DNA of 64,000 bases from an uncultured Acidobacteriia bacterium (GTDB lineage: Bacteria > Acidobacteriota > Terriglobia > Bryobacterales > Bryobacteraceae), in the NCBI GenBank assembly GCA_903828455.1, contig CAIKMJ010000046.1, forward strand, positions 248,001 through 312,000, written 5' to 3'. Shown here piece after piece: positions 59,389 through 62,051 of this stretch (its first letter is position 1; the number at the start of each line of letters is the position of its first letter). The notes beneath the pieces were generated by a model, which saw only the letters and a list, made by a program, of their open reading frames with translations, was not told where the DNA came from and searched no databases. The position numbers and the translations under genes were made by a program.

Positions 59389-59772
59389 ATGATCGAACGC
59401 CTCTCGCCCCCCGGCATCCCCGCCCCCCGCGGCCCCTACTCCCCCGCGGTCCGCGCCGGCGACTTCATCTTCCTCGCCGGCCAGGTCCCCGTCGACCCCG
59501 CCACCAACGCCCTCTCCACCGGCGACATCCGCCACGAAACGCGCCTCGTCCTCAATAACATCAAGCTGATTCTCGAAGGCGTCGGCTCCTCGCTCGCCGA
59601 TGTCGTCAAAGTCGGCGTCTTCCTCGCGAGCGGCGACGACTTCGCCGCCATGAACGAGGTCTACAGCGAATTCTTCGGCGACACCAAACCCGTCCGCACC
59701 ACCGTCGTCTGCGGCTTCATGGCCCCCATCCGCGTCGAAATCGACTGCACCGCTTACAGCCCGAAGCCGTAA
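59389..59772 (+). CDS. RidA/YjgF family protein
   Basis: GPYSPAVRAGDFIFLAGQVPVDPATN...KPVRTTVVCGFMAPIRVEIDCTAY. Confidence 0.92.
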   Translation: MIERLSPPGIPAPRGPYSPAVRAGDFIFLAGQVPVDPATNALSTGDIRHETRLVLNNIKLILEGVGSSLADVVKVGVFLASGDDFAAMNEVYSEFFGDTKPVRTTVVCGFMAPIRVEIDCTAYSPKP

Positions 59773-59816: not shown

Positions 59817-60689
59817 ATGCCTCAACAATCTCTCGACCTCTCGGAGATTCGGCGCATTGCTATTGCCGCGCTTTTCTCTGATGATGTGCTGACGGAACAC
59901 CTGGTCCTAAAAGGCGGCAATGCACTTAATTTGGTCTACGGGATTACGTCCCGGTCGTCGGTCGACCTCGACTTTGCAATGTCCCGGGATTTCGAGGATT
60001 CTAAGGACGCCTCCCGCCGGGTTTTCGCGGCCCTTCGCGACCGGTTTGACGCCGCCGGGTACATCGTGTTCGACGAATCATTCGAGCCTCGTCCGGATCT
60101 GGAGGGTAAAGGTCCCGACGAAAAGCCGTGGTGGGGAGGATATGAGGTGTCCTTCAAGCTGATCGACCGCCGGAAATTCCACTCTATGAAGAGCGACCCA
60201 AAGAAGCTCCGTAATCATGCGCTCGGTCTCGGAAGTGGTGCTAAGCGCCCGTTTAAAATTGACCTCAGCAAGTGCGAGTACACAATCGGGAAGGCCGCGC
60301 ATGAACTCGACATTTTCACGATCTACGTGTATACGCCGGAAATGATCGCTGTCGAGAAGCTCCGCGCCATTTGTCAACAAATGCACGAGTACCCACACAC
60401 GGGCAACAAGAAGGCGAGGGCTCGTGATTTTTACGATATCTATCGCGTCTTGACCACCCGAAACATCGACCTTCAGGCGGAAACGAACCGCATCCTACTG
60501 CGGAACATATTTGGGGCAAAGCAAGTGCCCGTATCTCTTCTCGGCAACCTTCCGCGCGAACGCGATTTTCACCGTGCCGACTGGCATTCGGTCATCACTA
60601 CCACCGCCGGAGAGTTGCACGACTTCGATTTTTATTTCGATTTTGTATTGGACGAGATCGCGGGGCTAAAATCCCTTTGGATAGAATAA
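59817..60689 (+). CDS. AbiEii/AbiGii-like nucleotidyltransferase toxin
   Basis: [56 protein letters not shown]. Confidence 0.88.
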
Positions 60690-61565
60690 TTTCCATTCTG
60701 AACTGTATTCTCGATCCCGGATGTCGTGAGCCAAATAGAAATCAAGCCTTTGGCCCAAGGCCTTCAGACGCTCGTATGCATTGGGGCTGTAGCCGGCCCG
60801 TTGCATGTAAAAACCCACTGCCTGATGGTAAGGATATACGTAATCGAGCCTCTTGAGCACAGCAAGGAGGGTCAACACAGAGACCCGTTCCATGGCTCCT
60901 CGATACGCTTCGAGCACTTGGTATACACCTCCGGCGTATGCGGGCCGGACGGTTATGTCGATGAGCGTACGTTCCAGTTTCGTCACAGCCAAATCTTCAC
61001 TATTCACCGAAAGGGTTCCAACTTCGAATCTTCCAGTGCTCTTGCCGTTCAGAATCTGGAACGTCGTGTCGTCGTACTGGTAGCTCAAAGTCGATAATCG
61101 CTGCGCCCGGCTGAATGCTTTGTCAACTCCGGTCTGGGTGAGTTCCGAAGAGTCTGATTGCCCTTTGGGCGTCTGCTCATGGTTCACATAGATTGCTCGA
61201 CGCGGGATTTGGTCGTTCAGACCATGCAAAAAAACTGCTGTACCATGGGACAAATATGCAGCCTTGTAAAGCGAAAGCCCGACGCTGTAGGGGGACGGAT
61301 CACCCCAAACGTAGCGGTTAAGGATCCGAGTTCCCGCATGAGCCTCATCCGGAGTCATTTGGATCTTCCGGAGCTTCCCTTTTGTAGAAAGAAGCTCGAT
61401 AAAGTTGTCCAGCTTCATGGCAACTGCCAAATCCCACCCATCTCTCTGGTCTTCTAATATCTGGGCAATCTCTCGTTCGTTGAAGACCTGTTTTCCCAAC
61501 TGCTCAAAATGGCGTAGAATCGCTGGTGTTGCTGCTTGGACCTTTGGTTTTCGACCTCTCGTCAT
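60666..61565 (-). CDS. AbiEi-like antitoxin/transcriptional regulator
   Basis: N-term wHTH-like; [68 protein letters not shown]. Confidence 0.78.
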
Positions 61566-61571
61566 GCTTCT

Positions 61572-61608
61572 ATTATAGACACTATTCGGTAGGTATATAT
61601 ACTTACCG
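61572..61608 (-). promoter_or_regulatory. abiEi-like promoter: TATAAT -10 (61572-61577) with near-perfect palindrome (61587-61608) over the -35 region
   Basis: CGGTAGGTATATATACTTACCG (one mismatch); -10 lies 6 nt from the ATG, implying a leaderless mRNA. Confidence 0.55.
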
Positions 61609-61674
61609 TATTTGCGACATTACGAGCCTTTCTCGTGAAGGTTCTAGCGGTTTCAAGAAGAAGAGGCAATAATA

Positions 61675-61710
61675 GCTTCACGTGTAGGTATATATACCTA
61701 CACGTGAAGC
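61675..61710. repeat. Perfect 36-bp palindrome
   Basis: GCTTCACGTGTAGGTATATATACCTACACGTGAAGC. Confidence 0.95.
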
Positions 61711-61817: not shown

Positions 61818-62051
61818 TCACGAATGAAAGAGCCGGTCGATCCTGCCCAGCACATCCTTGTGCTCAACAAACTCTCCCCGGTCGGCCTGCGCGATTCCCT
61901 TTTGCACACCGGCAACAAAGCGCACCTGATTGTCCGGCATCCTCACAACCGTGTCTTTCATAAGTTGTTCAGCGTCCTGGCCGCTCGAATCGGCCAGTTG
62001 CTGCAGCCGTGTTTCAACGTCGGGCGGGAAATGCACTTCCATGCCCTTCAA
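61818..62051 (-). CDS. Small RHH/ParD-like antitoxin, apparently orphan
   Basis: MEVHFPPDVETRLQQLADSSGQDAEQLMKDTVVRM...VQKGIAQADRGEFVEHKDVLGRIDRLF; no recognisable toxin ORF follows. Confidence 0.7.
   Translation of the reverse strand: MKGMEVHFPPDVETRLQQLADSSGQDAEQLMKDTVVRMPDNQVRFVAGVQKGIAQADRGEFVEHKDVLGRIDRLFHS

Follow-up and report, generated by a model that had tools for sequence, protein, structure and literature searches.

The AbiE type IV toxin-antitoxin system of Streptococcus agalactiae is a bicistronic operon, with the antitoxin gene ahead of the toxin gene on the same strand and one pair of 23-bp repeats that are read by sequence (PMC3985639), and the Rv2827c-Rv2826c pair of Mycobacterium tuberculosis is an operon with four tandem, adjoining 23-bp repeats (PMC7319586). 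The locus described here lies in a 64,000-nucleotide stretch of DNA from an uncultured Acidobacteriia bacterium (henceforth the window, to which the positions in Table 1 refer). With the S. agalactiae system it shares the AbiEi fold, a nucleotidyltransferase partner from the PF08843 family and inverted repeats in the abiEi promoter; with the M. tuberculosis pair, whose Rv2827c structure (1zel) is the best fold match, it shares the presence of several inverted repeats in one promoter. It differs from the former in that the genes are convergent with overlapping ends, so that the toxin gene is not located downstream of the putative operators; in this family the latter consist of several palindromes each, and the sequence of their outer arms is free. 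It differs from the latter in that the palindromes are about 100 bp apart, with arms specific to each copy, and that the genes are not operonic. By its fold and its partner the locus belongs to AbiE, but the operon arrangement that defines AbiE (PMC3985639) is missing.

A convergent form of AbiE

The AbiEi-like protein matches no Pfam or NCBIfam family, and no solved relatives of it were found by sequence. Its AlphaFold model (pLDDT 95.7) exhibits the winged helix and the C-terminal domain characteristic of the AbiEi fold, with Rv2827c (1zel) and S. agalactiae AbiEi (6y8q) as the top Foldseek matches, and these matches, together with the PADLOC assignment, uphold the identification of the gene as AbiEi-like in the earlier note. 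The AbiEii/DUF1814 nucleotidyltransferase partner is also present, and is conserved in alignments A2 and A4. This convergent toxin gene, which lies outside the control of the palindromes, had been overlooked in the earlier note.

Table 1. Features of the abiE locus and its surroundings, with positions in the window
Feature	Position	Strand	Details
RidA-like gene	59389-59772	+	
abiEii-like nucleotidyltransferase toxin gene	59817-60689	+	290 aa; PF08843, E 1.8e-25; PADLOC AbiEii, 6.3e-20
Tail-to-tail overlap of the abiEi-like and abiEii-like genes	60666-60689	.	24 bp
abiEi-like antitoxin gene	60666-61565	-	299 aa; PADLOC AbiEi, 7.2e-19
Possible abiEi -10 hexamer, TATAAT	61572-61577	-	6 bp ahead of the start codon; read from the sequence
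Proximal palindrome, CGGTAGGTATATATACTTACCG	61587-61608	.	22 bp, single mismatched pair; core 61589-61606
Distal palindrome, GCTTCACGTGTAGGTATATATACCTACACGTGAAGC	61675-61710	.	36 bp, perfect; core 61684-61701
Small frame beside abiE	61818-62051	-	77 aa; weak match, below the cut-off, to ribbon-helix-helix antitoxins (PF20605, E 0.018)

The abiE pair is located downstream of ridA. As 17 other genomes of the source genus keep trxB-ridA and lack abiE at this place, the pair was probably gained horizontally. Since the toxin gene begins 44 bp past the end of the RidA-like gene on the same strand, and trxB-ridA occurs elsewhere without abiE, the toxin gene may be read through from ridA.

Relatives were gathered from plasmids, 80 genome loci, one viral contig and whole-genome searches; many of them are metagenome assemblies, and their start codons were assigned by rule. 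Among the 96 loci whose AbiEi match is good, collected with a search profile that was itself seeded on convergent loci, the toxin gene is convergent with abiEi in 82, and the usual antitoxin-toxin operon was found in none. The others comprise 2 divergent loci, 1 locus with a weak match on the same strand some way off, and 11 loci for which the toxin was not found in the stretch. In the convergent loci an overlap of 24 bp is the commonest, and overlaps of 4, 14, 27, 36 and 39 bp also occur. The phage collection yielded no relatives and the viral contigs only one (L099). Further divergent loci reside on plasmids of Streptococcus, Lactococcus and Staphylococcus. The Bacillota plasmids L015, L016, L188 and L190-L193 carry divergent abiEii/abiEi pairs with two palindromes between the genes, and in this clade the entire half-site AAGCTATGGTATA is largely conserved. 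Convergent AbiE is a widespread form and apparently an undescribed one: the open-access papers that we searched contained nothing relevant, which does not prove absence.

Palindromes ahead of abiEi

The two palindromes of the source locus were found exactly where the earlier note had placed them, one perfect over 36 bp and the other spanning 22 bp with one mismatched pair, and the shared 18-bp core with 95 bp between the starts of its copies is likewise present in the sequence (Table 1). Their centres lie 32 bp (proximal) and 127 bp (distal) ahead of the abiEi start. A simple promoter scan listed no minus-strand promoter at the position of the TATAAT hexamer; if this hexamer is the -10 element, abiEi would be nearly leaderless and the proximal palindrome would cover the -35 region. 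When a single strand of the 36-bp site is folded with DNA parameters, it forms 16 bp of stem and a loop of 4 bases. Cruciform elements are recognized by an inverted repeat that has a short spacer and a stem of 5 bp or longer, as this site does. The number of core matches expected in shuffles of the window is 0.00, with up to three mismatches allowed. The genome-wide search for the core that had been suggested as a check locates TAGGTATATATACYTA at 2 places in the 4.40-Mb genome, both of them at the abiE locus, and the bare 10-mer GTATATATAC has one further copy, in which the symmetry stops at +/-6.

After removal of duplicates, a search of up to 450 bp upstream of abiEi revealed at least one long palindrome in 104 of the 110 loci, and two or more in 96. 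In the first set 88 of the 94 loci were positive, as opposed to 0 of 94 within-gene stretches and 9 of 1880 shuffles, and no such palindromes were found in 24 more distant AbiEi relatives from the same phylum, nearly all of which have the toxin on the same strand. On the toxin side, palindromes occur in 4 of 81 loci, two of which are divergent and two of which contain unrelated repeats. The sole convergent locus in which cores were seen on the toxin side is L043, where two bare GGTATATATACC cores (4325 and 4446) without paired arms precede the toxin gene by about 70 and 190 bp. The centres of the proximal palindromes cluster 20-50 bp ahead of the start codon, and most relatives possess a second copy further upstream; many loci carry three to five copies, a feature overlooked in the earlier note. 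Adjacent copies are mostly about 95-112 bp apart, but the 101 spacings in homologous loci exhibit no periodicity of 10.0-11.0 bp (Rayleigh p 0.59-0.95), and the suggestion that the two copies face the same side of the DNA does not hold as a general feature and was abandoned as an argument for looping.

A blind search with GGTATATATACC in 150 genomes of the source's order returned mostly clusters adjoining abiEi. Orphan palindromic GGTATATATACC sites were observed in L185 (5710 and 5828), L186 (6043 and 6162) and L187 (6130), which are larger regions around L175, L177 and L174, respectively. The pairs in L185 and L186 are 118-119 bp apart, and no recognizable abiEi or abiEii gene of the convergent family lies close to any of these sites, which may be relics left after gene loss or may be used by another regulator.

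The inner half-site tracks the AbiEi tree, with 12 changes at position 6 compared to 38.7 in shuffles. In view of this agreement, of the AbiEi-like gene itself and of the upstream palindromes in 104 of 110 loci, it is very likely that the palindromes are autoregulatory operators of AbiEi, as the earlier note had proposed; the helical phase of the two copies, which it had also noted, did not stand as an argument for looping. As to the residues that might follow base 6 of the operator, simple correlation pointed best to 108 and 160-175, which belong to the middle domain and not to the winged helix. Correction for the tree, on which there are only 11 changes, left nothing clear, and these candidates were rejected.

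Pairing without sequence in the outer arms

To avoid selection for symmetry, 174 sites were chosen by the exact core GTATATATAC alone. At positions 10, 11, 12 and 13 they are self-complementary in 93.7, 93.7, 89.7 and 87.4% of the cases, compared to 25-31% expected by chance from the base composition, while the base entropy at these positions amounts to 1.84-2.0 bits. Complementarity falls to 77.6% at position 14, 60% at 15 and 49% at 16, and is near the background by 26. At position 6 copies at the same locus are 83.5% identical, a value that drops to 29-36% over positions 10-13. Complementarity, entropy and identity between copies together indicate that the region to about +/-9, which is the 18-bp core of the earlier note, is conserved as locus-specific sequence, and the remainder mainly as pairs. 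This conservation of pairing rather than sequence in the outer arms had been overlooked; it is the kind of conservation that marks cruciform elements, and it suggests that the shape of the DNA, and not the sequence alone, is under selection.

Where nearest relatives differ in the arms, 32 of the changes are paired, 7 are one-sided and 2 are unpaired. The outer arms of L031, L035, L065, L079 and L102 are complementary once they are shifted by one base relative to the core, and in L004, L042, L046 and L047 the core lacks paired arms. Arm length peaks sharply at 14-15, with some arms extending far past 15 bp. On the Streptococcus suis plasmid NZ_CP029399.1 (L189) there are two palindromes that have lost their symmetry. 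In the divergent clade of Lactobacillales and Staphylococcus the full half-site is conserved in sequence between copies and species, hence AbiEi may read further out in this clade, and the boundary between reading and pairing may differ between clades.

It could be argued that the palindromes are simply operators of about 28 bp which an AbiEi dimer recognizes by sequence over their full length, and that their symmetry reflects no more than two-fold binding, given that the operators known for AbiEi consist of inverted repeats (PMC3985639, PMC7319586) and that the divergent clade conserves the whole half-site between copies and species. However, elsewhere the copies at one locus, which face the same AbiEi, are 29-36% identical at positions 10-13 and yet each of them is about 90% self-complementary, and we consider this explanation quite improbable. 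Somewhat more credible, although still unlikely, is the view that these are ordinary AbiEi operators, whose unselected outer arms were made symmetric by template-switch mutation at near-palindromes. Template switching is known to homogenize the arms of inverted repeats (PMC3820800, PMC8604942), and it would fit the predominance of changes on both sides together in close relatives as well as the arms that run well past 15 bp. On the other hand, among the isolated Hymenobacteraceae cores away from abiEi 8 of 9 extend no further than 6-7 bp and the ninth extends to 10, two isolated cores in the source's order also end at 6-7 bp whereas those adjoining abiEi are extended, the arm lengths have a sharp peak at 14-15, and the palindromes of L189 have decayed where both genes are annotated merely as short frames. 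With most controls lacking symmetry, mutational self-perfection was dismissed as the sole cause; since every control set is small, it retains some weight as a rival, and unequal mutation could contribute to the symmetry of the arms.

Predicted transcription starts also bear on whether the palindromes act in DNA or in RNA. In Bacteroidota most palindromes are directly preceded, on the abiEi strand, by a TAACTTTG-type -7 box (39 matches, versus 5 on the opposite strand, for 53 palindromes), and this box often begins 19 bp ahead of the palindrome centre. Taken together with the box-to-start distance used for Bacteroidota -7 promoters, this position puts the expected start of transcription within the left arm, and several upstream copies seem to carry promoters of their own. 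Hairpins in the RNA of the abiEi leader would be compatible with those palindromes that lie downstream of a likely promoter (e.g. in L073) and with the good single-stranded fold of the 36-bp site under DNA parameters, but the mismatches in the arms (23 of the G:T type and 32 of the A:C type) reveal no excess of G:T, symmetry is as high in distal copies as in proximal ones, and the predicted start in Bacteroidota is often within the left arm. The lack of the excess expected from G:U pairs and the starts predicted inside the palindromes argue for action in DNA rather than in RNA, and the RNA reading was set aside as very unlikely. Least probable of all is that the core is a dispersed repeat or the end of an element (MITE, REP) unrelated to AbiEi, which the earlier note had named as the finding that would speak against its proposal. 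The orphan sites in L174, L175 and L177 might be taken in its favor; however, the source genome has two copies, both at the abiE locus, and not many in unrelated contexts, the blind search in 150 genomes found the core mainly clustered beside abiEi, and the arms vary from copy to copy, which refutes it as a general account.

Probable operators as putative cruciforms

We propose, with a probability of about 0.6, that the palindromes are autoregulatory operators of convergent AbiE built as extrudable cruciforms. The inner 16-18 bp, here GTAGGTATATATACYTAC, would most likely be read by AbiEi as a pair of half-sites, and AbiEi would repress its own promoter, with the proximal site overlapping the -35 region or -10/+1, depending on the phylum. 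Complementarity of the outer arms out to about +/-14 would be maintained, irrespective of their letters, by the need for every site to remain capable of pairing within a single DNA strand. Under negative supercoiling the site could then extrude a cruciform with a TA-rich tip and at least about 12 bp of stem; the TA repeats at the centre of the site are expected to open readily. The likely consequence is that binding of AbiEi and extrusion compete or cooperate, and that expression of the antitoxin would be set both by the level of AbiEi and by DNA topology, while the convergent toxin gene would be transcribed separately from the operator sites. At superhelix densities of -0.06 to -0.04, a rough calculation that includes a cost of 17 kcal/mol places the threshold of extrusion at a total of 23-35 bp, and the modal palindrome length of 28-30 bp is near this estimate. 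According to the same calculation, the 36-bp distal site would extrude earlier than the 22-bp proximal one. Free supercoiling in cells may be lower than the value used, which speaks against the proposal, as do the few cores that lack paired arms, the orphan sites, and the sequence conservation of the full half-site in the divergent clade. Genome comparison reveals a conserved position, a locus-specific inner core, sequence-free complementarity of the outer arms, signs of action in DNA, and the lack of this complementarity at most isolated cores; binding and repression by AbiEi, intracellular extrusion and a regulatory role for it are what we infer.

Extruded DNA hairpins serve as promoters for the virion polymerase of phage N4. 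An E. coli promoter repressed by a cruciform was described by Horwitz and Loeb in 1988, as cited in PMC6060812. These cases and the sites described here have in common DNA inverted repeats in which pairing within a strand can affect transcription under negative supercoiling. They differ in that the evidence presented here is evolutionary and concerns a cellular toxin-antitoxin family, for which extrusion is predicted from a rough energy estimate.

A more far-reaching version of our proposal, which we regard as tentative and on balance doubtful, is that these operators are selected for the structure of the DNA, with a cruciform located at the promoter of the antitoxin gene or next to it and a tip specific to AbiEi, and that the supply of antitoxin is thereby coupled to the topology or integrity of the DNA, with the toxin being freed when topology is disturbed. 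Takeover by a phage and junction-cutting enzymes of phages are candidate disturbances that could free the convergent toxin.

The description of a widespread convergent AbiE introduces a form of the system in which the toxin gene stands outside the control of the antitoxin's operators. The question of whether bacterial genes are regulated by natural cruciforms is an old one, and it has been argued mostly from the enrichment of inverted repeats. More than 200 natural sites beside a single regulator, with complementarity conserved and sequence largely free, render it directly testable with paired-arm mutants. If the more far-reaching version of our proposal is true, this would be a family of operators under selection for DNA structure, in which the supply of an antitoxin is tied to the topology or integrity of the DNA.
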